A DNA stretch of 32,216 nucleotides from an uncultured Chlorobiaceae bacterium (GTDB lineage: Bacteria > Bacteroidota > Chlorobiia > Chlorobiales > Chlorobiaceae): contig CAIRXW010000024.1 of NCBI GenBank assembly GCA_903882665.1, positions 1 through 32,216 on the forward strand, in the 5' to 3' direction. How positions within the stretch are numbered: the first letter of the stretch is position 1; each line of letters opens with the position of its first letter. Shown in pieces: positions 6,995 through 31,341 of the stretch. Under the pieces are notes generated by a model that saw nothing but the letters and a program-made list of their open reading frames with translations, had not been told where the DNA came from and ran no database searches. Made by a program: the position numbers and the translations under genes.

Positions 6995-8772
6995 GACCAT
7001 GCCTCCCTCTCCACCAATGCGTTGGCGTTGGCCTCAGCCTCTGAGCCACCCAACTGTGAATCGTAGATTTCGCGGTAGACGGTGCAACTTTGCATAAGCG
7101 AAGCATGGTTGCCTTGGCCGACGATGCGACCTTTATCGAGCACAATGATTTTGTCGGCATTAAGAACAGAACTGACCCGCTGGGCAACCACAAGCAGCGT
7201 GCAGTTTGCGTTTTTTATCGCCAGTTCATCCTGTATTCTGCTCTCCGTGTCGATATCAACGGCACTGGTGCTATCGTCAAGAATGAGGATTTCAGGAGAT
7301 GCAAGCAGCGCCCGTGCAATGGCAATTCGCTGTTTCTGCCCGCCTGAAAGGTTAACGCCGCGCTCTTCAACGCGGGTATCGTATCCCTGCGGCAATCCGA
7401 GAATAAAATCATGAGCCTGGGCGGAGCGGGCGGCCTCAATGACGCGCTGCTGACTTGAACCGGGGACTCCGTATCGGATGTTGTCGCGAATGGTACCCGA
7501 AAAGAGAATGGTTTCCTGGGGAACGATGGCAAGCCGTTTCAGAAGTGAGTCCTGGGTCACCTCACGGATATCAAGACCGTCAATCAGGATTCTGCCTGAA
7601 GAGACATCGTAGAATCGTGGAATGAGGTTCACCAGCGTCGATTTTCCTGCACCGGTTGCACCGAGAATGGCAAGAGTCTTCCCGGGCTCAGCCACAAAAC
7701 TGACCGCATCAAGCAGCAGGAGATCGGACTCTCTGTTATAACGGAAGGAGACATTCTCGAAAACAATCCGTCCCGGTTTGTATGCCGTCATTGGCTTTGC
7801 GGCTCCTTGATCCTGAATGTCGGGTTGAATGTCGAGCACTTCGGCAATACGCTTTGATGAAGCCATACCGCCCGCCCAGACGTTGGTCAGGTTGGCCATA
7901 AAGATCAGCGGAGCCATGGTTGTCAACAGATAATTGGTAAATGCAACAACCTGACCAATCGTCAGCTTTCCGGCTATGGCATCAAGCCCGCCTACCCAGA
8001 TAACCAGAACCATGCCTGCGTTGATGCAGAGTGTCAGCAGGGGCGGCATACTTGCCATAAACTTCATAACGCTTATGGAGTCGCTGGCAAACGCCTGATT
8101 TGCCTTGTTAAACCGGGCAAACTCAAATTCACCTCTGACAAATGCCTTGATGAGGCGGATACCTGCAATATTTTCTTGCAAAACGGTACTCAGACGGTCG
8201 AGCTGACGCTGAACCGAGCTCCACAAGGGCTCCATTTTCACCACAAAGAAGATGATGATGACGGAGGTTATGAGGAGTAACGGCAGAATGGTCAGTGCAA
8301 GAGCGCTGCTGGTTTTGATCATCAAAATGAGGCTGCCGATCATCAGCAGGGTCGATCGCGTTCCGATGCGCAACGAAACCTGGGCAACACGCTGCACCGC
8401 AGAGGTATCGCTGGAAAGACGAACCATGAGCTGCCCGGTATTGAGCCGATCGATATTGCCGAATGAAAAGGAGTGGATTTTCAAAAACAACGCCTCCCGA
8501 ATATCACGGGCAACACTTTCACCAACCCTCACCGACAAAATGTGTGAACTGACGGCAAAAATAACGCTCAACAAGGTGATGGCAAGCATGAGCAGGCCGG
8601 TATTGATGACCATCTGCTGGTTGTGCTGATGAATACCCTGATCGATGATTTTCTGTATCAATCGCGGAATACTCAGATCCATCCCCACAACTGTGGTCAG
8701 CAATAAAAGAGAGGCAAACGCCTCTTTTCGATAGGGTCTTACAAAAGAACTGAGCCTGAAAATGTTTCGCAT
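6991..8772 (-). CDS. ABC exporter half-transporter with degenerate ATPase site (heterodimer subunit)
   Basis: A 593-residue ABC exporter half with membrane domain ~15-315 and an ATPase domain carrying Walker A GATGAGKST, signature LSGGQKQRIAIARALL and Walker B EILILDDSTSAVD. The residue after the Walker B aspartate is Asp instead of the catalytic Glu, and the switch region reads VVAQRVSS instead of the usual AHR. Both changes mark the degenerate site of heterodimeric exporters such as TM287/288. The start is preceded by GGGGGGAG at 8 nt. It overlaps the next gene by 4 nt. The SsuB-like ATPase gene ends 65 nt upstream with no clear terminator between, so co-transcription with the importer operon is possible. 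Confidence 0.92.
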   Translation of the reverse strand: MRNIFRLSSFVRPYRKEAFASLLLLTTVVGMDLSIPRLIQKIIDQGIHQHNQQMVINTGLLMLAITLLSVIFAVSSHILSVRVGESVARDIREALFLKIHSFSFGNIDRLNTGQLMVRLSSDTSAVQRVAQVSLRIGTRSTLLMIGSLILMIKTSSALALTILPLLLITSVIIIFFVVKMEPLWSSVQRQLDRLSTVLQENIAGIRLIKAFVRGEFEFARFNKANQAFASDSISVMKFMASMPPLLTLCINAGMVLVIWVGGLDAIAGKLTIGQVVAFTNYLLTTMAPLIFMANLTNVWAGGMASSKRIAEVLDIQPDIQDQGAAKPMTAYKPGRIVFENVSFRYNRESDLLLLDAVSFVAEPGKTLAILGATGAGKSTLVNLIPRFYDVSSGRILIDGLDIREVTQDSLLKRLAIVPQETILFSGTIRDNIRYGVPGSSQQRVIEAARSAQAHDFILGLPQGYDTRVEERGVNLSGGQKQRIAIARALLASPEILILDDSTSAVDIDTESRIQDELAIKNANCTLLVVAQRVSSVLNADKIIVLDKGRIVGQGNHASLMQSCTVYREIYDSQLGGSEAEANANALVEREAWS

Positions 8773-8837: not shown

Positions 8838-9617
8838 TCAGATAGCATAGGCAAAAGGATATTCTGTTTCAAGATGGAACTCTTTGAGTATCTCGGCCTT
8901 GATCTGCATAAATGCTGAAGACGCTCTGTCGCGTGGCCTTGGAAGAGGGACATCAATGATTTTTTTAATAATGCCAGGACGGGAAGACATAATAACCACC
9001 TTATCGCTCAGGTATATCGCCTCTTCTACATCATGCGTCACCATAATCATTGAGATTTTTTCAAAGAGCCATATTCTTTCAAGCTCTTTTTGCATATACA
9101 TTCTTGTCAGTGCATCAAGAGCTCCAAGAGGTTCATCCATAAGGAGTATCTCAGGTTTGCTCGCCAATGCTCTGGCAATAGCAACCCGCTGAGCCATTCC
9201 CCCGGAAAGCTGGGAGGGATAGGCACTCACAAACCCACTGAGGCCGACCAGTTTCAAATGTTCATCAACGATCAGCTTTTTCTCTTTGCGTTTAAGCTTT
9301 TCAAGTCCAAACGCAACGTTTTCACCAACAGTAAGCCAGGGAAGAAGGCGGTGATCCTGAAAAACTATTCCCCGGTTTAATCCAGGGCCAACAATTTTTT
9401 CACCATCTATTAATGCATCACCTTCGTATTGGGTTTCCAGACCCAACATAATTCGCAGCAGGGTTGTCTTTCCACATCCGCTGGAACCAACAATTGATAT
9501 AAAAGCACCCGCAGGAAAGACAATATTGATATTGTTTAAAATCTGTAATGGATTACCATCAACAATAAAGCTTTTACTCAGCGCTTTGATTTCAAGTGTA
9601 CCTTTTTCAATTGACAT
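8838..9617 (-). CDS. ABC importer ATPase, SsuB/TauB/NrtD type
   Basis: A 259-residue ATPase with Walker A GSSGCGKTT, Q-loop IVFQDHRLLPW, signature [16 protein letters not shown], Walker B ILLMDEPLGALD and switch MVTHDVEEAIYLSD. The 'LLPWLTV-ENVAFGL' and 'EPLGALDALTR' patterns are those of the nitrate/sulfonate/taurine importer family. The ATG at 9617 is chosen because it lies just after the stop of the adjoining permease gene, and the conserved ABC domain begins ~8 residues later; upstream in-frame starts would overlap the permease. It energises the two permeases encoded immediately upstream and is the last importer gene of the porin-led operon. Confidence 0.92.
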   Translation of the reverse strand: MSIEKGTLEIKALSKSFIVDGNPLQILNNINIVFPAGAFISIVGSSGCGKTTLLRIMLGLETQYEGDALIDGEKIVGPGLNRGIVFQDHRLLPWLTVGENVAFGLEKLKRKEKKLIVDEHLKLVGLSGFVSAYPSQLSGGMAQRVAIARALASKPEILLMDEPLGALDALTRMYMQKELERIWLFEKISMIMVTHDVEEAIYLSDKVVIMSSRPGIIKKIIDVPLPRPRDRASSAFMQIKAEILKEFHLETEYPFAYAI

Positions 9618-9633
9618 GGTATCTCTTTTTATG

Positions 9634-10416
9634 TTACGATTCTTTACGGATGGCTCTTCCACGATCCAATACTTTTGCAATTTTTTCGGCGGTCAATGTC
9701 ATGGCAAGCCCAAGAAAACCGACGGTTATGATTCCGGTAATAACCAATGGCATATTAAATTTTTCACGGCCAAGCTGAATTCTTGTTCCGATCCCGTCGA
9801 ATGTTTCTATAAATAGTTCAGCGGCCATCAACATTGCCCATGACATTCCAACACTGAGTGATATACCGGTCAGAATCGAAGGAAAAGCAGCAGGCAAAAC
9901 TATTTTTCTGATAAACTTTAATCGTTTATACCCATAAACAGCACCAAGTTCAATGTATTCCTTTGAAACACTTCGCACCCCGGAAAAAGTATTAAGCGTT
10001 ATCGGATAGAACGCAGCAATGGAAATAATAATAATACGGGGCAACTCTGTCATTCCGCACCACATGACAATTAAAGGTATCCATCCAATAATCGGAACTT
10101 GCCGTATAACATGAAACGTTGGTGCCAAAATTTTCTCCGCAGTTTTTGACAAGCCCATAAGCAATCCAAACAAAAAACCCGTCACACTGCCAATCAGAAA
10201 TCCAAATAATACCCGCTTTAAACTGACGAGAATATGAAGCAGAAATCCCTGTTCAACAAAAAGCTTTACAGTGTAATGAAAAAGGGTGCCTGGAGAAGGC
10301 AGAAAATGTGAGGAGACATACCCTCCGGAAGTAACTATCTGCCAAACAAGAAGGAGCACTATCGGAATTACAAGAGTACTCAATCTGTTTTTTATATTCT
10401 CACTAATCTGTATCAT
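9634..10416 (-). CDS. ABC importer permease, SsuC/TauC type (second permease)
   Basis: A 260-residue inner-membrane permease of the BPD/SsuC family with about six helices. The EAA-like coupling region reads ELGAVYGYKRLKFIRKIVLP, followed by AAFPSILTGISLSVGMSWAM. It lies 2 nt after the preceding permease gene and 16 nt before the ATPase. Having two different permease genes in the operon suggests a heterodimeric channel, whereas SsuC and TauC normally form homodimers. It would pass the ligand delivered by the binding protein encoded at 11294-12313. Confidence 0.9.
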   Translation of the reverse strand: MIQISENIKNRLSTLVIPIVLLLVWQIVTSGGYVSSHFLPSPGTLFHYTVKLFVEQGFLLHILVSLKRVLFGFLIGSVTGFLFGLLMGLSKTAEKILAPTFHVIRQVPIIGWIPLIVMWCGMTELPRIIIISIAAFYPITLNTFSGVRSVSKEYIELGAVYGYKRLKFIRKIVLPAAFPSILTGISLSVGMSWAMLMAAELFIETFDGIGTRIQLGREKFNMPLVITGIITVGFLGLAMTLTAEKIAKVLDRGRAIRKES

Positions 10417-10418
10417 GC

Positions 10419-11213
10419 TTATGCAATCCCCCCTTCAAAAGATCTGCGCCATGAAAAAAGACGCTTTTCAATTATTTCCAGGATAAAGTTCAAAACAAAC
10501 CCTATTGCTCCAATTACGACAAGTCCCGACATAACAAGATCAATCTGAAACATCTGGCGACCCCAGATCATCATATACCCGATACCTGAGTCACATCCAA
10601 AAAGTTCTGCCCCGACAACAAACATCCATGACAAACCAAGACTCAATCTGATGCCTGTAAAGATAGATGGCAATGCTCCAGGAATTATGACTTTTGTGAG
10701 ATACCGATAATTTTTATAATTATAGACGTTGGCCAGTTCATGATAATTTTTTGGCACACCACTAATTCCCTGAAAGGTATTGAAAACCATAGGATAAAAA
10801 GCTCCTATCGCTATAAATATTATTTTGGGAAGTTCACCAACGCTGAACAATATGATCAGTAATGGCATCCATGCATACTCCGGCACCTGCTGAACAGATT
10901 TTACAAGAGGAAGTAATGTTCTCTTTAAAAATGGTGACAATCCCATTACAATTCCCAGAATAAATCCCGATGAAGCGCCGACAAGAAATCCAATAACTAC
11001 CCGTTGCAGACTGACTATAATGTTATCAGTCAGTTCACCAGAACCGACAAGATCTGCAAGCGTATGAAATAAGGTCAGAGGAGGAGTCAGTATAAGCTCT
11101 GAAACCAATTGCAAAGGCCCGGCACTCTGCCAGAGTATCAACAAAAGCAAAGGCACAATCAAAGCCAGAAGCTTGTCTTTCCATTGAAAGTGTTTAATAA
11201 AACTTTTACTCAT
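10419..11213 (-). CDS. ABC importer permease, SsuC/TauC type (first permease)
   Basis: A 264-residue permease homologous to the next gene, with about six helices and coupling loop ELANVYNYKNYRYLTKVIIP, then GALPSIFTGIRLSLGLSWMF. The two permeases share layout and several blocks ('PSI-TGI-LS-G-SWM', 'P-I-F-A-GAFYP') but differ over most of their length, so they are old paralogs rather than a recent duplication. A strong hairpin (11232-11264) separates this gene from the upstream binding-protein gene, which would give less permease than binding protein. Confidence 0.9.
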   Translation of the reverse strand: MSKSFIKHFQWKDKLLALIVPLLLLILWQSAGPLQLVSELILTPPLTLFHTLADLVGSGELTDNIIVSLQRVVIGFLVGASSGFILGIVMGLSPFLKRTLLPLVKSVQQVPEYAWMPLLIILFSVGELPKIIFIAIGAFYPMVFNTFQGISGVPKNYHELANVYNYKNYRYLTKVIIPGALPSIFTGIRLSLGLSWMFVVGAELFGCDSGIGYMMIWGRQMFQIDLVMSGLVVIGAIGFVLNFILEIIEKRLFSWRRSFEGGIA

Positions 11214-11293: not shown

Positions 11294-12313
11294 TTACTTC
11301 CAATAATTTTCGAGGCCGAGCTCTTTCAATGCTACTTCTGAGTAGCTCTTGTCAAACCATTGGTCAACATCAAATTTCTGCCTGATCAGTTTGCTTCTGA
11401 ATGCAAAGTCAACGATATCCTTGAAAGAGGCTACCGAACTGGCATTGAGTGTTGGATTGTATTTTTCTTTTAAATTCTGACCGGCAAGATCTACAACAAG
11501 CGATTGACGTGAACTACCGGTTTTTGTTTCGACTGCATACAAGGCCTCCTTGTTCTTCTCCTGTGATGCCCAGTAGGCAGCTCGTATATGTGCCTTTACG
11601 ACCCGTTTTACGATGTCAGGATATTTTTTTGCAAACTCTTCCGTAACAAGCAGCGCACCTCTCCCCTTGTTCTGAATAGGATCTTTTCTTGTATCATAGA
11701 CGTCTACAGCAAGGCCCTGTTGTACCAAGGGACGATCAGCTCCACCGATAATAGCGTCAACACTTCCTGTCGCAAGGGCAGCCGAGGCATCAGCTCCCGA
11801 GAGATTAACAAGCTTGACATCACGTTCAGTCAATCCAACCTGAGCCAGCAATCTGTTAAGAGTAAGATGTGTCTTGGTTCCTTTACTCACCGAAATACGC
11901 TTTCCTTTCAGATCCCTGAGTGAGTGAATATTTGCTTGAGGAGCTGCAATGATGTAAGAATTCACTCCATTATCCCGCCCTAAAATGTACCTGGTTTTCA
12001 ATCCTCCTGCTCGGCCAATAACGCAGGGAAGGTCACCAATACTGGCGATATCGAGCTTTCCTGCAGCTAACGCCTCGTTCACCGCCGGGCCAGCACCTTT
12101 ATACAACGTGAGCTGGATCTGAATACCATCATTCTTGAACTCCTGCTGCAAAAGGCCCTGATCCTGCACAATACCATTAATTCCTCCTGCAAATGGCTTG
12201 CCACTACTTCCGACTGCACCGACACGGATTACTGCGGGTTTGTTTGCTGCCTGTGCAGCAACCGTCATTGAAACCAGGCCTGCAATAGTTAAAAATCTTA
12301 TCCACTTTTTCAT
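11294..12313 (-). CDS. Periplasmic binding protein of an SsuA/NMT1-like importer
   Basis: A 339-residue secreted protein. The signal peptide (MKKWIRFLTIAGLVSMTVAAQA) is likely cleaved after AQA. The mature part has the NMT1/SsuA signature: 'IRVGAVGSSGKPF' at the start, 'AGKLDIASIGDLP', 'DLKGKRISVSKGTKTHLTLNRLLAQVGLTERDVKLVNLSGADASAALATGSVDAIIGG', and a helical C-terminus. Family members bind sulfonates, nitrate, taurine, thiamine precursors or aromatic acids. The regulation upstream of this operon favours a sulfur-containing ligand, but the binding pocket cannot be read. AAAGGAG precedes the ATG; the porin gene ends 28 nt upstream. Confidence 0.88.
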   Translation of the reverse strand: MKKWIRFLTIAGLVSMTVAAQAANKPAVIRVGAVGSSGKPFAGGINGIVQDQGLLQQEFKNDGIQIQLTLYKGAGPAVNEALAAGKLDIASIGDLPCVIGRAGGLKTRYILGRDNGVNSYIIAAPQANIHSLRDLKGKRISVSKGTKTHLTLNRLLAQVGLTERDVKLVNLSGADASAALATGSVDAIIGGADRPLVQQGLAVDVYDTRKDPIQNKGRGALLVTEEFAKKYPDIVKRVVKAHIRAAYWASQEKNKEALYAVETKTGSSRQSLVVDLAGQNLKEKYNPTLNASSVASFKDIVDFAFRSKLIRQKFDVDQWFDKSYSEVALKELGLENYWK

Positions 12314-12341: not shown

Positions 12342-13706
12342 TTAAAATCCATACTGGAATTGGGCAACAAAATCATTCTGGTGTAAATCGCTGTTGCTTC
12401 TTTCATGACGAACATTATAGTTGAACTGCAGTTTTGTTGTCTCAGCAAAAAACACATTAAAACCATAGGTAACTATTGAGGTATCATCTCCTGAAACCGC
12501 TTTATCAGGGTCATAATGATCAAAGCGCACAAATGGCTGATATGTCGTTGGCCAGTAATCATCTTGACGAGACTCAACCCGGGCATTTTTCAGGAACTGA
12601 TCTCCAAAATTATAGAAAACCGTAAGCGTGTAGCCATCACTTTTTCTTGTTGGCTTTACTATGTTTGCTTTTGTTGTACCTGAAAGATACTGGCTCTCCT
12701 GGGAAGCATATTCCGCAGTAAACCCTATTGGAGTGGCGACATAAGCCAGATCGACTCCGTACAGGTTTCTTGAGCCGATATCTTTAATGGTTGAGGTGCC
12801 TATTGTCTTGGAAATATCATCCTTCCCTCTATAAAAAGAACCTCCAAGAGAGAGGCCCCGGTAACTCGAATTATAATCTACCGGTGCATTGATAATAATC
12901 CTTCCGCCAATATCCTTTTGCTTGTTTGTATCAAGTGCATTCGGACCGGAACCATTAAAAATACCGATAGAATACTCAATAAGCGGAATACGGTAGTTGA
13001 ACCCCAGATCGAGCGTCGGAGAAATATCACCACGCAGCAGAATACCAATATCGCGTTTTGATACATTGAGCTTGGAAACGAATGTAGCGCTATTGATCGT
13101 TGGTTTTTTATCATCATTTGTTGTTGCCTCAAGACCAAATGGCTTTTTCTGTTGACCAAACTGGACATAAAAAAGAGGCTTTTCATTGTCAAGCGAGGGA
13201 AAAATCGAGTACTGCAGATAAGCATCTGTAGGTTGCACATAATTGGTAACAGTGCCAGATGTCGTTGTTGCCAGGCTTAAAACGTAATCCAGATTACGTC
13301 CTTCTGCGTAGTCTTTTTTAAGGTTTCCTTTAAATGAAAGGGTTGCTGATCCTCCGGAAAAAGTCGGAATTGGATCCGGCGATGCATTCGACGATGTCGG
13401 TATTGAATAACTGCTCGATAAGGTACCGGATATCTTCAGCGACCGTTGACTGTTGGCTATATTATTCGCAAGAGTACGATCATAGGCATCTTTAAGAACC
13501 GCTATTTCATTCCTGACACCTTCAAAATCTTCACGGGTTATAGGTTGTTGTGGTTCAGTAACTCCTGCCGACGATGCATTTTCTGTACTAACCTCTTCTC
13601 CTTTTGTTACCTGGGTCTCAGTATTTGAATTCTCGGCAGCTTGAAGAGACGCATTACCTATCATCAGACTACCGAGAAAAAGTAGTGTAAACTTTAATTT
13701 ACTCAT
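12342..13706 (-). CDS. OprP/OprO-like outer-membrane porin
   Basis: A 454-residue outer-membrane beta-barrel. The N-terminal signal peptide (MSKLKFTLLFLGSLMIGNASLQA) is followed by an acidic, low-complexity linker and a short helical segment (EDFEGVRNEIAVLKDAYDRTL), as in trimeric porins. The barrel part begins KISGTLSSSYS, contains YVQFGQQKKPFGLE (the OprP/O family region) and ends in alternating residues with terminal Phe (VAQFQYGF), the outer-membrane assembly signal. OprP-type porins favour anions such as phosphate. Here it heads the importer operon behind a cysteine-rich leader, which suggests a dedicated route for an anionic ligand. Confidence 0.85.
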   Translation of the reverse strand: MSKLKFTLLFLGSLMIGNASLQAAENSNTETQVTKGEEVSTENASSAGVTEPQQPITREDFEGVRNEIAVLKDAYDRTLANNIANSQRSLKISGTLSSSYSIPTSSNASPDPIPTFSGGSATLSFKGNLKKDYAEGRNLDYVLSLATTTSGTVTNYVQPTDAYLQYSIFPSLDNEKPLFYVQFGQQKKPFGLEATTNDDKKPTINSATFVSKLNVSKRDIGILLRGDISPTLDLGFNYRIPLIEYSIGIFNGSGPNALDTNKQKDIGGRIIINAPVDYNSSYRGLSLGGSFYRGKDDISKTIGTSTIKDIGSRNLYGVDLAYVATPIGFTAEYASQESQYLSGTTKANIVKPTRKSDGYTLTVFYNFGDQFLKNARVESRQDDYWPTTYQPFVRFDHYDPDKAVSGDDTSIVTYGFNVFFAETTKLQFNYNVRHERSNSDLHQNDFVAQFQYGF

Positions 13707-13742: not shown

Positions 13743-13777
13743 AAAAAAAGGCCGAATCTGACAACAAGAATCGGCCT
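13743..13777 (-). terminator. Attenuator terminator before the porin gene
   Basis: On the minus strand AGGCCGA pairs with TCGGCCT. An inner TCT/AGA pairing follows after a T-T mismatch, the loop is TGTTGTC, and the stem runs into seven U residues. It sits between the stop of the cysteine-rich leader peptide (13804) and the porin start (13706), where an attenuator terminator belongs. Its sequence is clearly related to the hairpin at 20053-20089 (shared GCCGATTCTTGTT-TCAGA). It could also stop read-through from the reductase operon. Confidence 0.75.
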
Positions 13778-13785
13778 GCTTTATA

Positions 13786-13811
13786 ATATTTAATTACATA
13801 TAATCAAATAT
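13786..13811 (-). promoter_or_regulatory. AU-rich hairpin overlapping the leader stop codon
   Basis: On the minus strand ATATTTGATTA pairs with TAATTAAATAT (11 bp with one G-U pair, loop TATG). It covers the stop codon of the cysteine-rich leader and lies just before the terminator. This is where a pause or competing structure of an attenuator would sit; the role is inferred. The second locus has only a small counterpart (GGTTATATAACC at 20100-20111). Confidence 0.4.
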
Positions 13812-13899
13812 CAGAAACAGCGAATACTTTTATATCACCATAATCCACAAAAAAGCAACAACATCGCTTTATTCTCTTGAAAACGACCGTCAAAACCAT
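13804..13899 (-). CDS. Cysteine-rich leader peptide of the porin/importer operon (31 aa)
   Basis: A 31-codon frame starts MVLTVVF and contains KRCCCFFVDYG, with three consecutive Cys codons (TGT TGT TGC, residues 13-15, positions 13855-13863). The ATG at 13899 has an ideal ribosome-binding site, AAGGAG with a 5-nt spacer. The stop at 13804 is 27 nt before the terminator hairpin. The second leader at 20137-20202 has the same design and a similar start (M-LT-V/I), although the peptides otherwise differ; conservation of the Cys run is what an attenuator needs. Inferred action: ribosomes stall at the Cys codons when Cys-tRNA is scarce, preventing terminator formation. The peptide itself probably has no other function. 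Confidence 0.8.
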   Translation of the reverse strand: MVLTVVFKRIKRCCCFFVDYGDIKVFAVSDI

Positions 13900-13966
13900 A
13901 CCATCTCCTTAATTATTACAGATGCAATCAAACACAATTTCGAAGCATCAAGAAAAAGAATATTGT

Positions 13967-14008
13967 GCAGATTGTAAATCCCGTTTAACCGGCATATTCT
14001 CTACCATA
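13967..14008 (-). promoter_or_regulatory. Promoter/operator element shared with the reductase operon
   Basis: On the minus strand it reads TATGGTAGAGAATATGCCGG then TTAAACGGGATTTACAATCT, ending GC. All but about five of the first 33 positions match the element at 20321-20361. The stretch contains a -10-like GAGAAT (13996-14001) at the place where the other copy has TATAAT, followed by the strictly conserved AACGGGATTT. Transcription would start near 13990, about 95 nt before the leader peptide. This much noncoding conservation upstream of two different operons suggests a shared activator or repressor site as well as a promoter. Confidence 0.65.
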
Positions 14009-14040
14009 TATGAGTTACCGCAATAAACCATACCGATATA

Positions 14041-14152
14041 CTAACCAAGCATTTCAATAAATGCATTGATACGGTTCAGCAACTGCTCACTCTGTTCTGA
14101 GCCAGACTCATTCTGCTCGATAACCATGGTCGGTATGCCCGTATCCCTCTGT
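14041..14152 (-). pseudogene. 3' fragment of a third copy of the 464-aa reductase subunit gene
   Basis: Directly after the HgdB-like gene, the minus strand continues in another frame with KQRDTGIPTMVIEQNESGSE and then QSEQLLNRINAFIEMLG, a stop following at 14041. This matches the last ~36 residues of the two intact 464-aa subunits (for example IKRDSGIPTMIIEQHEGGSE). There is no start and nothing of the rest of the gene. It is the stump of a third gene copy, apparently lost when the HgdB-like gene was recombined in front of it. Confidence 0.85.
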
Positions 14153-15346
14153 TTATACTGCAACCTCTGCTGCTGATTCCGCCTTGATCTTGATCATCTC
14201 TACGAATGCCTCGACTCTTGTTCTCATTGCCTCGTAATCGGAACCGGCATACTCGGTATGAATCTCCAGTAGCGGAATACCCGACTTAGCCAGAACATCC
14301 TTGGTCTCCTTGGCTTTGAAGGTGAATGGGTCACAGTAACGCAGCGTGTGGTAAATGACCCCCTGGGCTTTGCTCTCGTCGATAAGCTCATGGAGCTTTT
14401 TCAGGCGCCGGTCGCTCTCAAGATCAAGGTATGGAAGCGCTGCGTGAGGAGTCCGGTTCAGGTAACCAAGGGCAACTCCTGCTGGTGAAATCTCTTTGAT
14501 ATCAAGGTCAAGATGAGGCAGAATACCTGTCCAGAGATCATCACCAACAATACGACCTCCAACAGCATTGATGATACCGATCAGTTTCCGGTCTCCCCGG
14601 GGTATAAGGCTGCCTGAAATAAAGATTCGGCCATCAGCGCCATCGGCTTCGATCACCGGATCAGGCTGAAGCTCCTGCAACTCTATCAGCGTCTCTTGCA
14701 GCAGTATGAGGTACTCTTTTTTGTCAAGCAGATCACCAGCCTGTATCAAGTCAAAGACCTCTTCCCAGGAGATCACATTATCTTTGGCTGCCTGAAAGAA
14801 GTAGATGCTTTTGAGTGTCTTGCGAATGTCGTTATACAAGGCTACCGATGCAGCCAGTTTCACGGTATCGAGCTTGGCCCCGGCCCGCTCTTCAAGCAGA
14901 CGGGTAAACTCATTAGCCTCGTTGACAAAGTACTCCTGACCCTCTTCCCAATAGAAGTTGCGGGGCACACCCAGCACAACGACATCCCGTTTAAAGTAGT
15001 ACTCGATGACTTCGGCAGCACGGAAGTTCTGCAAACAGGTGGCATCAAAGGCAAGCACATCCGTTTGCTGGATGTATGGATCCTCATTTTCGGCAAAGGC
15101 TCCGACAATTTCACGAATAAACACACAGTTTTTGCTGGAGGCATATCGACCTCCCACCTCTACCAGCCGATCATCTCCACCAATGGCAATCCTGATTGGA
15201 ATAAACCCTAATGCATGGATAATCTCTTCAGGAACATTATATCCCGTCCAGCCAACTACTTTTTGACCATTTGCACGAGCTTTTCTCAATTCATCAGGCC
15301 GCTCATCGAGCCGTTTTCTGATTACTTCCAGTGTTTTAACCGTCAT
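14153..15346 (-). CDS. HgdB/BcrB/FldC-like subunit of a 2-hydroxyacyl-CoA dehydratase-family enzyme
   Basis: A 397-residue protein of the HGD-D family. The start has the family block GWTGYNVPEEIIHALGFIPI. Only three cysteines are present: C74 (SSKNCVF), C104 (DATCLQNF) and C338 (LRYCDPFTFKA), at the places where family members hold one [4Fe-4S] cluster. Relatives include the beta subunits of 2-hydroxyglutaryl-CoA and phenyllactyl-CoA dehydratase and benzoyl-CoA reductase, which receive one electron at very low potential from an ATP-driven activase. It is the third intact type of gene in the operon and has one copy, while the partner subunit and activase have two. A start with AGGGAA upstream is used. 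The actual substrate is unknown. Confidence 0.85.
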   Translation of the reverse strand: MTVKTLEVIRKRLDERPDELRKARANGQKVVGWTGYNVPEEIIHALGFIPIRIAIGGDDRLVEVGGRYASSKNCVFIREIVGAFAENEDPYIQQTDVLAFDATCLQNFRAAEVIEYYFKRDVVVLGVPRNFYWEEGQEYFVNEANEFTRLLEERAGAKLDTVKLAASVALYNDIRKTLKSIYFFQAAKDNVISWEEVFDLIQAGDLLDKKEYLILLQETLIELQELQPDPVIEADGADGRIFISGSLIPRGDRKLIGIINAVGGRIVGDDLWTGILPHLDLDIKEISPAGVALGYLNRTPHAALPYLDLESDRRLKKLHELIDESKAQGVIYHTLRYCDPFTFKAKETKDVLAKSGIPLLEIHTEYAGSDYEAMRTRVEAFVEMIKIKAESAAEVAV

Positions 15347-15391
15347 GATTCAATTCCCTTTTTCTATGGTTAGTCTTATAAATTTTTATAC

Positions 15392-16783
15392 TTAAAGCAT
15401 TTCGATAAAAGCATTGACTCGATTGAGCAACTGTTCGCTCTGTTCGCTTCCGCCCTCATGCTGCTCTATAATCATGGTTGGTATACCTGAATCCCGCTTG
15501 ATGGTGTCGCACAACATCCTGGCAATGGCCGACTGCGTGTTGCATCCCCACTGGTATAAAAAGAGGACACCGTCAGCACGCGATTTTTTGAGTTGTTCTA
15601 TTGTCCACTCCGCCCGTTTCTCAATGGATTGTTCATAAGGATAGGAGAGAATGGCATGAGCCAGGTTCTGGTAGGGATCTCCCTCTTCCGCGACGAGAGT
15701 GCTGATGTCGCTCCAGTGATTATCCTGACCAACAATGATGGCCCCCGCCTCCTCAATTCGAAAATCGTTTGGAAAAACGCACGAGCCGCAGACAAAGAGA
15801 CGAATCGGTTTATCGACGACCCCTTCCGCCTTGATGCCCCTCTTTACCCGCTCACGGATATAAGCGTTCGATTCTCGAAGCACCGTCAAACTGGCGCTTG
15901 GATCTCCATGAATCTCCATGCCTCCCATCTGATAAAGGGCCCGACGATCTACCCCGTTGGTTGGAGGCAGATCTGCCGACCACCAGAGTTCAGCAGTGTC
16001 AATTGCCAGTCGGCGACCTTCGTTATGCAGCTTTATCTCTTTCGTCAAATCATCGTCAGTTACTTCTCTCCCTGCCCTTTTGCCAATCTCACTGGTCAAT
16101 CGACGCAGATTCCGGGCAAAGTATTCAACGGCCCAGGGCTTGTCTGCCTGATGACGCATGGGATAATCGATGTTCATCAGCTTTACCGCTTTATTTGGGC
16201 CGTGCCGGTGCGCTTCAACCCCATAGGAGATATCGGAGCAACGCAAGCAGGTAAACGGAGCAACCATGTCAACCGGAAGATCATCCTCCTGAATGTTGGC
16301 ATATCCGGCGGTCTGGCAAGCTTCAAAACTGATAGCATGATTAGCCTTTTCTCTCTGATTGCGACTTCTTATCGCCTCTTCATTCAATCCAAGTCCTTCA
16401 TGTCGTCCTCTGGCCCATAGACCCACACTGGCAGGACGCAATGCAATTCCGCCTGCGGCGTAGTAGGGATCGACACTTTGCCCACCCTGCACGAAGATGA
16501 CCGGAGCACCATTCTCTCGACTTTTGTTGATACGGTCGTTCATCGTGAGAAGAAGGTAGTGGTTCTTTATAGCGCTTGGAAGATGGATATCTCTTGACAA
16601 ACGACTGCCTGCATACTTCTTCTGCGTATAGGCAAAAGGGTATCTCTTCGGCCCGATTTCTGTCATAAAATGCCATACGTCCGCCGCTGTCGCCCGCGAT
16701 CCGTCACGAAAATGAATATCTTCAGTTGCTTCAAACTCTTCACGCAACTCTGCCGGATACTCGTATAGAGCCGTCTTTGCCAT
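15392..16783 (-). CDS. Multi-cysteine HgdA/BcrC/double-cubane-like reductase subunit, copy 2
   Basis: A 463-residue HGD-D family protein, longer than HgdB-type subunits because of an N-terminal extension (EEFEATEDIHFRDGSRATAA...). It has seven cysteines, all conserved in copy 1: C156, C179 and C182 (TCLRC), C332 and C335 (CGSC), C414 (WGCN) and C425. A single [4Fe-4S] site needs about three; six or seven is what a double-cubane [8Fe-9S] cluster, as in DCCP proteins, would need. This cluster assignment is inference. It lies 45 nt before the HgdB-like gene and 68 nt after its activase. About 90% identical by eye to copy 1. GGAG precedes the ATG. Confidence 0.85.
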   Translation of the reverse strand: MAKTALYEYPAELREEFEATEDIHFRDGSRATAADVWHFMTEIGPKRYPFAYTQKKYAGSRLSRDIHLPSAIKNHYLLLTMNDRINKSRENGAPVIFVQGGQSVDPYYAAGGIALRPASVGLWARGRHEGLGLNEEAIRSRNQREKANHAISFEACQTAGYANIQEDDLPVDMVAPFTCLRCSDISYGVEAHRHGPNKAVKLMNIDYPMRHQADKPWAVEYFARNLRRLTSEIGKRAGREVTDDDLTKEIKLHNEGRRLAIDTAELWWSADLPPTNGVDRRALYQMGGMEIHGDPSASLTVLRESNAYIRERVKRGIKAEGVVDKPIRLFVCGSCVFPNDFRIEEAGAIIVGQDNHWSDISTLVAEEGDPYQNLAHAILSYPYEQSIEKRAEWTIEQLKKSRADGVLFLYQWGCNTQSAIARMLCDTIKRDSGIPTMIIEQHEGGSEQSEQLLNRVNAFIEML

Positions 16784-16851
16784 GCTGATTTTTCTCCATG
16801 TTATTTTTTCACAAATTCACAGAAACTTCTTTTTGCTTTCCCGTGGGACAC

Positions 16852-17661
16852 TCAGGCCCATAGCCCCTCTTTTTTTGAAAAGCTGCGGGCAAGCACCGCT
16901 GCGCCGAGAGCACCGATAAGCTGAGGATCAATTTCAGGTTTGACAATGGTGACTTTCAACGCCTCTTCGATGGCCGTTTTCATACCGGTATTTTTGGCTA
17001 CTCCTCCCGAGAAAAAGACATCGCTTGCAATGCCCACTCTTGCAAAAAGTCCTGAAATACGATTGGCGATAGCATGATGGATCCCGTTCAGGATATTTGC
17101 AGGCTTTTCACCCCTTGCGACGAGCGAGATAGTTTCCGACTCTGCAAAGACGGTGCAGGTGCTGCTCATGGGCACAAGCTCCGTTGCCGAAAGGGCCAAA
17201 GCTCCAAGATCCTCAAGCTTTACCTTAAAAACGCCAGCCATCACCTCAAGAAAACGACCAGTGCCTGCCGCGCATTTATCATTCATGGCAAAATCGACTA
17301 CCGCTCCATCCTGATCAATCCGTATAGCCTTACAATCCTGACCACCCATATCAATAATGGTTCGAACCGAAGGGTGGAGGTAATTGGCCCCCTTGGCGTG
17401 ACAGGTAATTTCAGTAACCGCTTTATTGGCATAAGGGGCAGAGACGCGACCGTAACCGGTTCCAACGATATAGGTAAGATCCTCCTGTATCAGTCCTCCC
17501 GTCTCCAGAGCCAGGTTCAATGCTTTCAATCCACTCTCCACAGAATCAACTCCGCTCGGAACAAGGCCGGTAGCAAAGATTTCTCCATCTTCCAGAATCA
17601 CCGATTTTGCTGCCAGTGAACCCACATCAACACCTGCAAAAAAATTCCTTTTTATCGACAT
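16852..17661 (-). CDS. ATP-dependent activase (HgdC/BcrD-like), copy 2
   Basis: A 269-residue ASKHA-fold activase. Phosphate-binding loop GVDVGSLAAKSVIL (9-22), IDMGGQD (103-109), and the two cysteines that hold the bridging [4Fe-4S] cluster of the homodimer, C130 (KCAAGTGRF) and C169 (SSTCTVFAESE), plus FFSGGVAKN near the end. Such activases hydrolyse ATP to push a single electron at very low potential into the partner dehydratase/reductase. The ATG at 17661 is chosen over an upstream start at 17754: it aligns with copy 1 and has GGAG upstream; the longer start would overlap the neighbouring gene. Confidence 0.92.
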   Translation of the reverse strand: MSIKRNFFAGVDVGSLAAKSVILEDGEIFATGLVPSGVDSVESGLKALNLALETGGLIQEDLTYIVGTGYGRVSAPYANKAVTEITCHAKGANYLHPSVRTIIDMGGQDCKAIRIDQDGAVVDFAMNDKCAAGTGRFLEVMAGVFKVKLEDLGALALSATELVPMSSTCTVFAESETISLVARGEKPANILNGIHHAIANRISGLFARVGIASDVFFSGGVAKNTGMKTAIEEALKVTIVKPEIDPQLIGALGAAVLARSFSKKEGLWA

Positions 17662-17722
17662 CCTATACTCCAGATTTGAGGTTATTTTAAATTGAACAAA
17701 GAAGATTCCAGTCGTTTGATCT

Positions 17723-19117
17723 TTATCCGAGCATTTCAATAAACGCATTGACACGATTCAGCATTTGCTCACTCTGTTCGCTACCACCTTCATGATCCTC
17801 GATAATCATGGTTGGTATTGCTATCTCTCTTTTGACCGTGTCGCACAACATCCGGGCAATCGCAGATTGTGTATTGCATCCCCACTTGTATAAAAACAAG
17901 ACACCGTCGGCACGAGATTTTTTGAGTTGTTCAACGGTCCATGCAGCCCTTCCCTCAACGGATTGTTCGTAGGGATAGGAGAGTATGGCATGAGCCAGGT
18001 TCTGATAGGGATCTCCCTCTTCCTTCACAAGCGTACTAATGTCGCTCCAGTGATTATCCTGGCCGACAATAATTGCGCCTGCCTCCTCAATACGAAAAGC
18101 GTTCGGAGAGACACATGAGCCGCAGACAAACAGGCGAATCGGTTTATCAATCACCCCATCAGCCTTGATACCCCTCTTTACCCGATCCCGTATATAGGCG
18201 TTCGACTCTCTCAGCACCGTCAAGCTGGCGCTCGGGTCTCCATGAACCTCCATTCCCCCCATCTGATAAAGTGCCCGGCGATCAACACTATTTGTCGGCG
18301 GAACATCTGCCGACCACCAGAGTTCAGCAGTGTCGATAGCGAGACGGCGACCTTCATTGTGCAACTTTATCTCTTTCGAGAGATCCTCATCAGTTACTTC
18401 ACGCCCAGCCCTTTTGGCGATCTCACTGGTCAATCGGCGAAGATTTTGCGCAAAGTATGTAACAGCCCACGGCTTGTCAGCCTGATGACGCATGGGGTAA
18501 TCAATATTCATCAGCTTTACGGCTTTATTTGGCCCATGCCGATGCGCTTCAACGCCGTATGAGATGTCGGAGCAGCGCAGGCAGGTATATGGAGCCACCA
18601 TATCAACAGGAAGGTCACCTTCCTGGATATGCTCGTATCCAGCAGACTGGCATACCTCAAAACTGATGGCATGATTGGCCTTCTCTTTTTGCTTGTGGCT
18701 TCTGACAACCTCCTCATTCAATCCAAGTCCCTCATGCCGCCCTCTTGCCCATATTCCAACACTGGCAGGACGCAGAGCAATACCGCCCGCAGCATAATAG
18801 GGATCAACACTTTGTCCGCCCTGGACAAAGATGACCGGTGCACCGTTCTCTCGACTCTTGTTGATACGATCATTCATCGTCAGCAAGAGGTAGTTGTGCT
18901 TGATCGCGCTCGGAAGATGAATATCACGCGATAAACGCCCCCCGGCATACTTCTTTTGTGTGTAGGCAAAAGGATATTTTTTCGGCGCAACTTCGGTCAT
19001 AAAATGCCAGATATCCGCTGCTGTTGCTCGAGAACCATCTCTAAAATGAATATCATCTGTTGCTTCAAACTCCTCCCGCAACTCGGAAGGGTACTCGTAT
19101 TGCTCTCTCTTTGCCAT
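17723..19117 (-). CDS. Multi-cysteine HgdA/BcrC/double-cubane-like reductase subunit, copy 1
   Basis: A 464-residue paralog of the product of 15392-16783 with all seven cysteines kept (CQSAGY, TCLRC, CGSC, WGCN, LCD). Differences concentrate in the first ~80 residues (MAKREQYEYPSELREEF versus MAKTALYEYPAELREEF), around the first cysteine, and at the C-terminus, which has one extra Gly. The ATG at 19117 is used because it aligns with copy 2; an upstream ATG at 19150 would add 11 unmatched residues. Two diverged versions in one operon may have different substrates, or form a heteromer with each other or with the HgdB-like subunit. Confidence 0.85.
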   Translation of the reverse strand: MAKREQYEYPSELREEFEATDDIHFRDGSRATAADIWHFMTEVAPKKYPFAYTQKKYAGGRLSRDIHLPSAIKHNYLLLTMNDRINKSRENGAPVIFVQGGQSVDPYYAAGGIALRPASVGIWARGRHEGLGLNEEVVRSHKQKEKANHAISFEVCQSAGYEHIQEGDLPVDMVAPYTCLRCSDISYGVEAHRHGPNKAVKLMNIDYPMRHQADKPWAVTYFAQNLRRLTSEIAKRAGREVTDEDLSKEIKLHNEGRRLAIDTAELWWSADVPPTNSVDRRALYQMGGMEVHGDPSASLTVLRESNAYIRDRVKRGIKADGVIDKPIRLFVCGSCVSPNAFRIEEAGAIIVGQDNHWSDISTLVKEEGDPYQNLAHAILSYPYEQSVEGRAAWTVEQLKKSRADGVLFLYKWGCNTQSAIARMLCDTVKREIAIPTMIIEDHEGGSEQSEQMLNRVNAFIEMLG

Positions 19118-19186
19118 GCTGCTCTCTTTCAATGTTTTTAATGACACCATTTCATCGGAGTAATTCCTCCCTTCTTTCCTGTAACG

Positions 19187-19996
19187 TCAGCTCCAAAGTC
19201 CCTCTTTTTTTGAAAAGCTACGAGCAAGCACCGCTGCACCGAGAGCGCCAATAAGCTGAGGGTCAATTTCAGGCTTGACAATAGAGACTTTCAAAGCCTG
19301 TTCAATAGCATGTTTCATGCCGCTGTTCTTGGCCACTCCGCCGGAAAAAAAGACATCACTCGTTATACCGACTCTTGCAAAAAGTCCGGAAATACGATTT
19401 GCGATAGCATGGTGAATCCCGTTCAGAATGTTTTCAGGCTTCTCACCCCTTGCTACAAGCGAGATGGTTTCCGACTCTGCAAAGACTGTGCAGGTACTGC
19501 TCATGGGGACAAGTTCCGTCGCTGAAAGCGACAGGGCACCAAGCTCTTCAAGCTGCACCTTGAATACACCGGCCATTACTTCCAAAAAACGTCCAGTGCC
19601 TGCAGCGCACTTATCATTCATGGCAAAATCGACTACCGCTCCATCCTGATCGATGCGAATAGCTTTACAATCCTGACCGCCCATATCAATGATGGTCCGA
19701 ACCGAAGGGTGCAGGTAATTGGCACCCTTGGCATGGCAGGTAATTTCGGTAACAGCCTTATTGGCATAAGGCGCAGAGACACGACCGTAACCCGTTCCAA
19801 CGATATAGGTCAGATCCTCCTGCTTCAGTCCACCGGTCTCCAGAGCAAGGTTCAATGCTTTCAAGCCACTCTCCACAGAATCAACCCCGCTTGGCACAAG
19901 ACCAGTTGCAAAGATCTCTCCATCTTCCAGAATAACCGATTTTGCTGCCAGTGAACCCACATCAACACCTGCAAAAAAATTCCTTTTTAACGACAT
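19187..19996 (-). CDS. ATP-dependent activase (HgdC/BcrD-like), copy 1
   Basis: A 269-residue activase, first gene of the reductase operon. It has the same ASKHA motifs as copy 2, with cluster cysteines C130 and C169 and extra cysteines C87 and C110. Only about 12 residues differ from copy 2, mostly after residue 145. GGAG lies 6 nt before the ATG. The leader attenuator and its terminator end 57 nt upstream, so this gene sets the level for the whole operon. It is named an activase by family; its partner is most likely the subunit encoded next (17723-19117). Confidence 0.92.
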   Translation of the reverse strand: MSLKRNFFAGVDVGSLAAKSVILEDGEIFATGLVPSGVDSVESGLKALNLALETGGLKQEDLTYIVGTGYGRVSAPYANKAVTEITCHAKGANYLHPSVRTIIDMGGQDCKAIRIDQDGAVVDFAMNDKCAAGTGRFLEVMAGVFKVQLEELGALSLSATELVPMSSTCTVFAESETISLVARGEKPENILNGIHHAIANRISGLFARVGITSDVFFSGGVAKNSGMKHAIEQALKVSIVKPEIDPQLIGALGAAVLARSFSKKEGLWS

Positions 19997-20052
19997 CTTT
20001 TACTCCAACTTTTTAATTATTCAAAATTGATCACGATACTATCCGGAAAGAG

Positions 20053-20089
20053 AAAAAGCCGACTCTCTGATAACAAGAATCGGCTTTTT
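20053..20089 (-). terminator. Attenuator terminator before the reductase operon
   Basis: On the minus strand AAAAAGCCGA pairs perfectly with TCGGCTTTTT (10 bp, 17-nt loop with a further TCT/AGA pairing). It sits between the leader peptide stop (20137) and the activase start (19996). There is no minus-strand structural gene upstream that it could terminate, so its function must be in the leader. It shares GCCGATTCTTGTT-TCAGA with the hairpin at 13743-13777. Confidence 0.8.
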
Positions 20090-20136
20090 TCATAAACCAG
20101 GTTATATAACCAGGCACTACGTTGCGGCAAATAATT

Positions 20137-20202
20137 CTATATCAGGATGCTATAGGGCAAGCAACAACAACATAGCGTATGCAACAGAATAGTTAATTTC
20201 AT
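20137..20202 (-). CDS. Cysteine-rich leader peptide of the reductase operon (21 aa)
   Basis: A 21-codon frame starts MKLTILL and contains HTLCCCCLPYS, with four consecutive Cys codons (TGT TGT TGT TGC, residues 11-14, positions 20161-20172). The stop is 48 nt before the terminator. The ribosome-binding site is weak (AAGAG, distant). The Cys-codon DNA can also pair over 5 nt with GCAAC of the downstream leader RNA (20121-20125), a possible start of an alternative fold. With the leader at 13804-13899 it forms a matched pair controlling two operons. Inferred role: sensing charged Cys-tRNA by transcription attenuation. Confidence 0.78.
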   Translation of the reverse strand: MKLTILLHTLCCCCLPYSILI

Positions 20203-20320: not shown

Positions 20321-20361
20321 GCAGATAAAAATCCCGTTGATACGGCATATTATATACCGTA
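20321..20361 (-). promoter_or_regulatory. Promoter/operator element of the reductase operon
   Basis: On the minus strand it begins TACGGTATATAATATGCCGT, an imperfect 21-nt palindrome that contains a consensus -10 box, TATAAT (20349-20354). It continues AACGGGATTT and ATCTGC, both conserved in the porin-operon copy at 13967-14008. A weak -35 candidate, ATTACA, lies 18 nt further upstream. Transcription would start near 20342, about 140 nt before the leader peptide. The palindrome over the -10 suggests repression in addition to attenuation. Confidence 0.65.
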
Positions 20362-20454: not shown

Positions 20455-20631
20455 GGCTTTCATTTTCGTGGAAGAAGGTGCTCGTTCCCTGCGGGATCAG
20501 TTGATGAAGGATTGACGTATCTATTCTACTGGATTTACTATCAGGGTTGCCATGAATGTTGGCTTTAAGAGTGGTTACTGGTGTAATAAATTTTGTTGCA
20601 AAGTATAGCACTTAGTGATATCTTTGTTGCG
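20455..20631. other. Intergenic region before the toxin-antitoxin pair
   Basis: Frames here are interrupted by stops. A -10-like TATAGC near 20604 could start the toxin transcript. I see no other feature. Confidence 0.3.
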
Positions 20632-21021
20632 ATGAGAGTTTTTACAAATAAATGGTTTTCCCGCTGGGCTGACGATGAAGAGTTTTCTGACTCTGTTTTG
20701 TGGGCAACGGCCAAGGATGTCGTAGCCGGGAATGTTGAAGGTTCCTTGGGAGGGTGCTTGTTCAAGAAACGAATCCCTCGGGAAGGCGGAGGCAAACGTT
20801 CCGGTTACCGCATTATTGTCGGATACAGAAAGAGTGATGGGAGCAGGGTGGTTTTCCTCTATGCTTTTGCTAAAAACGACAAAGCTAACATTTCAAACAA
20901 AGAGAAAACCGCGCTTCAACTTACAGCAAAAGATTTTTTAAGTGCAACAAACAAACAGTTACAGGCACTTTTATCGACAATGAAATACAGGGAGATAACA
21001 GCTCATGAGCAAGATTCTTGA
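20632..21021 (+). CDS. RelE-like type II toxin (PF06296 type)
   Basis: A 129-residue protein that starts MRVFTNKWFSRWADDEEFSD and has the family core GGCLFKKRIPREGGGKRSGYR, YRKSDGSRVVFLYAFAKNDK and NISNKEK. This is the RelE/HigB-like toxin family, mRNA interferases that act at the ribosome. The ATG at 20632 matches the conserved start of the family; an upstream TTG at 20593 would add 13 unmatched residues. It overlaps the antitoxin gene by 17 nt. The toxin-first order is typical of the HigBA/NadS arrangement. Confidence 0.85.
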   Translation: MRVFTNKWFSRWADDEEFSDSVLWATAKDVVAGNVEGSLGGCLFKKRIPREGGGKRSGYRIIVGYRKSDGSRVVFLYAFAKNDKANISNKEKTALQLTAKDFLSATNKQLQALLSTMKYREITAHEQDS

Positions 21022-21307
21022 TATAGCCCATGAAATGGCCAAAGACCTTTTTGAGGTCGGAGCAATGGACGAAGTAACGATGCGTACAGTCGAATCGCTT
21101 TGTTTGCCGGAAAAAAAGGTTTTTCTGCCGGAGGACATCCGTCGCATTCGGACAACAAACCATCTCAGCCAGCCTGTTTTTGCTTTGATGCTCGGGATTG
21201 GAAAAACGACCGTTCAGCAGTGGGAGCAAGGGGTCAAAAAGCCTGGTGGAGCTGCCAAGCGTTTATTGGACGTGATCGATCGAAAGGGTATTGCGGTACT
21301 GAGCTGA
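21005..21307 (+). CDS. XRE-family antitoxin (HigA/NadS-like)
   Basis: A 100-residue protein. After a helical N-terminus (MSKILDIAHEMAKDLFEVGA) the C-terminal half is a Cro/XRE helix-turn-helix: LPEDIRRIRTTNHLSQPVFALMLGIGKTTVQQWEQG, then GGAAKRLLDVI. This is the usual NadS/HigA-2 architecture. It should neutralise the overlapping RelE-like toxin and repress the pair's promoter. Confidence 0.88.
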   Translation: MSKILDIAHEMAKDLFEVGAMDEVTMRTVESLCLPEKKVFLPEDIRRIRTTNHLSQPVFALMLGIGKTTVQQWEQGVKKPGGAAKRLLDVIDRKGIAVLS

Positions 21308-30306: not shown

Positions 30307-30310
30307 GAGG

Positions 30311-31306: not shown

Positions 31307-31341
31307 GATAGTAAGTCCATTTAATAGTTTTGGTTATGATT

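Follow-up and report, generated by a model that had tools for sequence, protein, structure and literature searches.

Cysteine-codon transcription attenuators of Chlorobiaceae that probably switch HGD-D/activase and porin/SsuABC-type importer operons for organosulfur use

A 32,216-nt stretch of DNA from an uncultured Chlorobiaceae bacterium (GenBank assembly GCA_903882665.1, contig CAIRXW010000024.1; the whole stretch is hereafter called the window) carries two operons, both wholly on the minus strand, each of which is headed by a short leader open reading frame (ORF) with a run of cysteine (Cys) codons. An intrinsic terminator follows each leader, ~37 nt before the porin start codon for the first and ~54 nt before the activase start codon for the second. 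The two leader regions consist of the following elements:

13804-13899, minus strand: leader peptide 1, MVLTVVFKRIKRCCCFFVDYGDIKVFAVSDI, with Cys codons within 13852-13863
13818-13836, minus strand: predicted antiterminator arm 1, GATATAAAAGTATTCGCTG (17 bp, -16.8 vs. -14.6 kcal/mol for the terminator)
13782-13813, minus strand: small hairpin 1
13743-13777, minus strand: intrinsic terminator 1, AGGCCGATTCT-tgttgtc-AGATTCGGCCT-T
20137-20202, minus strand: leader peptide 2, MKLTILLHTLCCCCLPYSILI, with Cys codons at 20161-20172, the run being kept in orthologous leaders
20134-20144, minus strand: predicted antiterminator arm 2, TGATATAGAAT, whose partner is the terminator 5' side plus loop, ATTCTTGTTATCA (14 bp in the minimum free energy structure of the truncated RNA)
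20096-20115, minus strand: small hairpin 2, between the antiterminator strands
20053-20086, minus strand: intrinsic terminator 2, AAGCCGATTCTT-gttatca-GAGAGTCGGCTT-T

The genes that they head are, in order of transcription:

19187-19996, minus strand: BcrAD/BadFG-type ATPase (activase), first gene after leader 2 (PF01869 4e-65, TIGR00241 5e-80)
17723-19150, minus strand: HGD-D family protein of 475 amino acids (family with four invariant Cys)
16852-17754, minus strand: second activase, 96% identical to the first
15392-16783, minus strand: HGD-D family protein of 463 amino acids
14153-15346, minus strand: HGD-D family protein of 397 amino acids (family with three invariant Cys)
12342-13706, minus strand: outer-membrane porin (Porin_O_P), first gene after leader 1 (PF07396 8e-10)
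11294-12313, minus strand: SsuA-family substrate-binding protein (TIGR01728, 173.8 bits)
10419-11213, minus strand: SsuC/TauC-type permease
9634-10416, minus strand: SsuC/TauC-type permease
8838-9680, minus strand: SsuB/TauB-type ATPase
6991-8772 and 5168-7000, minus strand: two half-transporters of ABC exporter type that follow the importer genes, assigned to the operon by strand and spacing

A reading of the letters alone (below, the sequence-only reading) had placed a CCC and a CCCC leader here, each with a related terminator ahead of the first structural gene, and our analysis confirms that both leader ORFs and both terminators are real rather than products of chance. Both leaders fold more strongly than shuffled sequences (z -3.6 and -2.9), and a covariance model of the family (R1, built from an alignment of 12 leaders, which head activase orthologues and the window porin) recognizes them at E = 8e-18 and 1e-11, both being members of its training set. 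A scan of the window with the Rfam covariance models gave no family at gathering score, and a known riboswitch or T-box was rejected on that basis. Two details of the sequence-only reading did not survive: the common M-LT-(V/I) start of the two peptides is a matter of chance, related leaders agreeing in little besides the Cys run, and the description of the attenuators as “twin” is right in that both exist but counts too few, as the window's own genome carries at least four leaders (two in the window, one just past its end and one on contig C47). The third leader (MKSPGMSHLTFCCCCRQVHTVRKVFGTM, G000:C24:33015-33130, minus strand) precedes a further operon, of SsuB-SsuC-SsuA and ABC exporter genes, the 3' part of which occupies the right end of the window (26651-32151).

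The leaders belong to a family that recurs across the Chlorobiaceae. Our sample comprised 98 genomes, mostly draft metagenome-assembled genomes, with 86 from Chlorobiaceae and 12 from other families of the class. R1, whose E-values are rough, found 90 leader copies in the 86 Chlorobiaceae genomes (E < ~1e-3), up to eight per genome and many of them paralogous, and had no match in the 12 genomes from other families; overall, the element was found in 27 of the 98 genomes at E <= 1e-3. Tandem Cys codons (two or more, mostly three) occur in 80/90 leaders, and an ATG-started ORF runs through the Cys codons in 82/90 leaders in the Cys frame, the counts for the two remaining frames being 8/90 and 23/90. 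Both Cys codons are used (TGT 209, TGC 42), which implies that Cys has been retained through synonymous change, and the peptides are otherwise unconserved, with no flanking residue above ~31% and some peptides terminating straight after the run. No promoter at a fixed distance from the leader ATG was apparent, the only positions above 60% being T at -1 and -2 and A at -12. Since R1 includes the Cys codons and could be circular in this respect, we made a Cys-blind model (R2) that covers no more than the small hairpin and the terminator, and it recovers the same leader set. Among nine weak matches particular to R2 that we inspected, six have CC or CCC(C) ORFs and three have no Cys ORF (G007:C68:26060, G003 and G045) and resemble unrelated terminators. 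Eleven leaders precede activase/HGD-D operons, and the Cys run is kept in orthologous leaders.

The structural evidence concerns the RNA downstream of the Cys codons. The terminator and small hairpin covary: both partners have changed in 14 of their 18 pairs, the covariation is 0.300 vs. 0.222 +/- 0.007 in shuffles (0/500), and all five measures beat 500/500 shuffles. The terminator loop is unusually conserved (GTCA). A predicted antiterminator explains this: its arm (consensus cTGACAtcAAAGtttttGCgCC), which lies past the Cys codons, would base-pair with the loop as well as with the 5' side of the terminator. Arm and terminator are complementary in 74.7% of cells vs. 31–53% for slid controls; arm-terminator duplexes within the same leader average -9.70 vs. 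-8.28 +/- 0.22 kcal/mol when permuted (0/5000, with relatedness uncontrolled); and six or more arm-terminator pairs form in 75 of 87 leaders when the RNA ends at the loop. An antiterminator exclusive of the terminator is thus backed by both complementarity and energies. A further “protector” pairing, between Cys codons and arm, reaches 80% complementarity (34–50% when slid), its covariation being not above shuffles. Counted from the first Cys codon of the run, the leader stop codon most often comes ~48 nt downstream, the RNA structure overlaps the end of the leader ORF, and the first gene carries its own Shine-Dalgarno-like GGAG.

As predicted from this layout, the element is a classical ribosome-mediated attenuator, made up of a Cys-codon ORF, an antiterminator arm, a small covarying hairpin and a terminator. 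With charged tRNA-Cys plentiful, a ribosome would pass the Cys codons and reach the stop codon, where it would cover the arm and small hairpin, or the arm would pair back with the Cys-codon region; either way the terminator would form and end transcription. When cysteine is short, the geometry suggests that the ribosome would stall on the Cys run and leave the arm free, and the free arm (cTGACAtcAAAG...GC.CC) could then pair with the terminator 5' side and loop (GG.AGCCGATTCTTgcTGTCA) across the small hairpin, so that the operon would be transcribed. Where a leader ends directly behind its Cys run, the Cys codons could pair with the arm and so take over the role of the finishing ribosome.

Attenuators with Cys codons are a known kind, and it is the Chlorobiaceae leader family and its regulon that appear undescribed in the literature searched, where we found no report of such leaders in Chlorobi. 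The closest precedent is uORFC-8-2, a predicted Cys-codon attenuator with a terminator upstream of cysS in Rhodobacterales (PMC8632094), which likewise joins a short upstream ORF with tandem Cys codons to RNA stems and an intrinsic terminator, and for which ribosome-mediated attenuation was proposed. However, it has two Cys codons and is found only upstream of cysS in Alphaproteobacteria (PMC8632094), whereas the Chlorobiaceae leaders typically have three to four Cys codons (up to seven), occur in up to eight copies per genome and have an upstream operator-like palindrome, and cysS was not identified among the first genes after the 90 leaders, all of which are in Chlorobiaceae. The parallel with mycobacterial polycysteine leaders drawn in the sequence-only reading is sound as to Cys-codon runs upstream of sulfur-assimilation genes and breaks down at the terminator: a comparative study found no conserved terminator hairpins in mycobacteria (PMC1262725), and the polycysteine ORFs there are reported to act without terminators (PMC1262725; Canestrari 2020), whereas the Chlorobiaceae leaders have a conserved terminator/antiterminator pair. 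Control codons, mutually exclusive hairpins and a terminator ahead of the first gene are shared with the trp, his and ilv attenuators; unlike those, the leaders described here would use cysteine as signal, serve a multi-operon scavenging regulon and conserve the terminator loop as part of the antiterminator.

A second, sulfur-related locus carries leaders of the same architecture. Weak R2 matches in three genomes (G053, G037 and G082) lie behind CCCC or CCC ORFs and ahead of a DUF4395 gene, which is present in 77/86 genomes, and an upstream tandem-Cys ORF with up to seven Cys in a row was found at 25 of 27 readable DUF4395 loci (of the 30 best). In the window's own genome, the leader on contig C47 (MKSMTSITLMMCCCCCCHKLHYSGKRISEKRL, CCCCCC; L226:551-1229) and its terminator precede DUF4395, a metY-type O-acetylhomoserine sulfhydrylase, a LuxR-type regulator and cysK, and beyond cysK come a hexapeptide acyltransferase (read as putative cysE) and a cystathionine gamma-synthase-type enzyme. 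Predicted antiterminators of the cysK-locus leaders have energies of ~ -22 to -31 kcal/mol and terminators of ~ -19 to -23 kcal/mol. Given where the CCCCCC leader sits, DUF4395 may take part in sulfur metabolism.

The two kinds of loci are also linked by an operator-like palindrome (consensus TTATGGTATGCAATATGCCGTTTAAACGGGATTTACAAA), of which the form GGTAT..ATGCCGTTTAAACGGGAT is common to leaders and cysK:

20329-20358, minus strand: operator-like palindrome GGTATATAATATGCCGTATCAACGGGATTT, upstream of leader 2
13972-14005, minus strand: operator-like palindrome GGTAGAGAATATGCCGGTTAAACGGGATTTACAA, upstream of leader 1
G000:C47:11320-11339, plus strand: operator-like palindrome ahead of cysK

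Its 22-base core occurs with at most four mismatches upstream of 59/88 leaders, where shuffled sequences reach six at best. With at most two mismatches, the window's own genome holds five occurrences (none in the reversed control), three ahead of the island leaders, one 62 bp before cysK and one elsewhere, and the palindrome lies 30–65 bp before cysK in six genomes (this one and five others, a second genus included). The pattern points to one transcription factor for cysteine or sulfur control that would act at all of these candidate operators.

Broadly, the first genes after the 90 leaders comprise a porin with SsuABC-type importer (25), the radical-SAM family NF045502 (19), an activase with HGD-D (11), RND efflux (8), NifH-like proteins with Nif-D/K-like partners (8, plus 2 led by an SDR), PPOX flavoproteins (6), SsuB (5), arylsulfotransferase (3) and single others. 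NF045502 genes headed by Cys leaders come as paralogues in tandem, accompanied by PPOX flavoproteins and SsuABC (L093, L094, L114, L140 and others). For the leader-controlled NifD-like protein, the best solved match is MarD (9FMG, 7.6e-43) and the next distinct nitrogenase-type protein follows at 6.5e-18, in a comparison of matches. Methylthio-alkane reductase Mar is an anaerobic sulfur-salvage enzyme (PMC12552129), to which these NifH/D/K-like proteins may be akin; the MarHDK-like genes are found in relatives and not in the window. A PAPS_reduct-domain protein, taken as a proxy for sulfate assimilation, is encoded in 26/27 leader-bearing vs. 30/59 other genomes (p = 2e-5), which is consistent with life at low sulfide, and photoferrotrophic Chlorobi are known to assimilate sulfate (PMC5498476).

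Turning to the enzymes themselves, the combination of PF06050 subunits with a PF01869 activase places them in the HGD-D/BcrAD superfamily, that is, with the 2-hydroxyacyl-CoA dehydratases, class I benzoyl-CoA reductases and double-cubane proteins, which likewise pair HGD-D subunits with a BcrAD-type ATPase activase. The label “BcrBC/double-cubane-like” given in the sequence-only reading had to be dropped, and a double-cubane protein was rejected: scores against NF040772 are 176.3, 73.3 and 68.3 bits, far under the 350-bit NCBIfam cut-off, and only three (397-aa family) or four (463/475-aa family) Cys are invariant, with no six-Cys site for an [8Fe-9S] cluster, whereas the double cubane in BzdN is held by six Cys (PMC11971306). 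Three to four invariant Cys agree with single [4Fe-4S] sites like those of the dehydratases and BzdO, and the enzymes look like 2-hydroxyacyl-CoA dehydratases, HGD-D being the safer name. What sets the window genes apart from the rest of the superfamily is their clustering with sulfonate-type importers and their predicted cysteine control. A 4-thiouridine monophosphate desulfidase has been placed partly in the HGD-D superfamily (PMC11971306), meaning that sulfur chemistry is not foreign to it, and a dicubane protein has been linked, as a suggestion, to selenium or methyl-sulfur gene clusters (PMC10418091). The substrate-binding protein of the importer clears the NCBIfam subfamily cut-off (173.8 vs. 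163.5 bits for TIGR01728), which places it in the SsuA family of putative sulfonate-binding proteins. Close relatives of the window HGD-D protein are all in Chlorobiaceae metagenome assemblies (including Chlorobium sp. L227-2013-55) and in one Paenibacillus; the Paenibacillus forsythiae cluster (L152:4009-10310) encodes SsuBC, an activase, HGD-D (66% identical), a binding protein and a second HGD-D, and has no such leader and no Rfam element.

Resting on comparative evidence throughout, we estimate at roughly 80% the probability that these are Cys-codon transcription attenuators of Chlorobiaceae which switch HGD-D/activase and porin/SsuABC-type importer operons for organosulfur use. The same leaders on both window operons bear out the idea, put forward in the sequence-only reading, that porin, importer and HGD-D/activase fall under one cysteine-dependent control, and their predicted induction by cysteine shortage is well supported. 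The proposed organosulfur-scavenging role is likewise strengthened by the same leader family and operator ahead of metY/cysK, by the same leaders ahead of MarHDK-like genes and arylsulfotransferase, and by the importer, activase and HGD-D cluster in Paenibacillus. Most likely, the two operons would jointly import an organic sulfur compound and process it reductively to supply cysteine synthesis. It is tempting to go further and to see in HGD-D/activase a new class of ATP-driven, low-potential reductases that cleave C-S bonds, fed by a dedicated porin and SsuABC importer, as an organosulfur-assimilation branch of the benzoyl-CoA reductase/dehydratase superfamily shared by Chlorobiaceae and Paenibacillus; we hold this proposal tentatively, at somewhat less than an even chance.

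Several observations weigh against the attenuator and its assignment to sulfur. Four DUF4395 loci, in the single-contig genomes G016, G025, G001 and G002, have no CCC leader, and the DUF4395 leader is hence not universal. Eight leaders stand ahead of RND efflux genes, an adaptor and a pump (L083, L102, L108, L119, L134 and others), for which no part in sulfur metabolism is apparent. Covariation inside the antiterminator alone is not above shuffles (124/500), in sequences that are related, and about a quarter of the leaders stop right after the Cys run and would need the non-covarying protector pairing. An obvious Shine-Dalgarno sequence was found by simple pattern in only 7/90 leaders, and the leaders as a set show no conserved one. 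Finally, some leaders look decayed, with no ATG or proper Cys run (G037:C100:9002, G038:C47:17372 and G067:C18:37467; L078:9002-9120, L087:10093-10213 and L113:501-618), the RNA element being kept, in genomes with two operon copies.

The pumps also feed the best of the alternative explanations, in which cysteine is sensed and HGD-D/activase serves another need of sulfur starvation, such as import and reduction of an aromatic or other carbon compound, or sulfur sparing. HGD-D proteins do include dehydratases and benzoyl-CoA reductases without sulfur chemistry (PMC11971306), and SsuA-family binding proteins are broad; yet HGD-D/activase is repeatedly clustered with SsuABC-type importers in two phyla, and it is co-regulated with cysK/metY, MarHDK-like genes and arylsulfotransferase, which makes this explanation unlikely, though worth keeping in view. 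The leaders might also control expression through translational coupling or Rho, or in response to redox state or some signal besides tRNA-Cys charging; this would match the mycobacterial polycysteine ORFs, which are reported to work without terminators (PMC1262725; Canestrari 2020), but the conserved, covarying intrinsic terminator with its alternative pairing and the first gene's own GGAG make it improbable. Up to seven consecutive Cys might instead mean that the ORFs encode small Cys-rich proteins with a function of their own, such as binding metals or clusters; this is highly improbable given the free variation of length and sequence outside the Cys run, the peptides that end at the run and the overlap of the RNA structure with the ORF end. 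Chance ORFs ahead of ordinary terminators, copied with duplicated operons, could account for the many paralogous copies clustered on one island and were rejected because of their recurrence and frame bias (82/8/23), the retention of Cys among highly diverged leaders and the independent DUF4395-metY-cysK leaders reached from the Cys-blind model.

If they act as predicted, the leaders would be a sequence-readable reporter of cysteine shortage across a whole bacterial family, and would assign a physiological role to proteins that homology cannot place (HGD-D/activase operons, NF045502, Nif-like proteins and porin-importer systems). The role of orphan members of the benzoyl-CoA reductase/dehydratase superfamily becomes directly testable, and to the known attenuators is added a compact, putatively cysteine-responsive one whose antiterminator is well defined, along with a candidate operator for a cysteine or sulfur transcription factor. 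This also suggests that freshwater green sulfur bacteria, known as sulfide oxidizers, have the means to draw on organic sulfur in times of sulfide shortage.

Two minor features of the region complete its description. The 96% identity of the two activase genes within one operon suggests a recent duplication or gene conversion, and a RelE-type toxin gene with an HTH/MqsA-like antitoxin (20593-21307, plus strand) adjoins leader 2 on the opposite strand.

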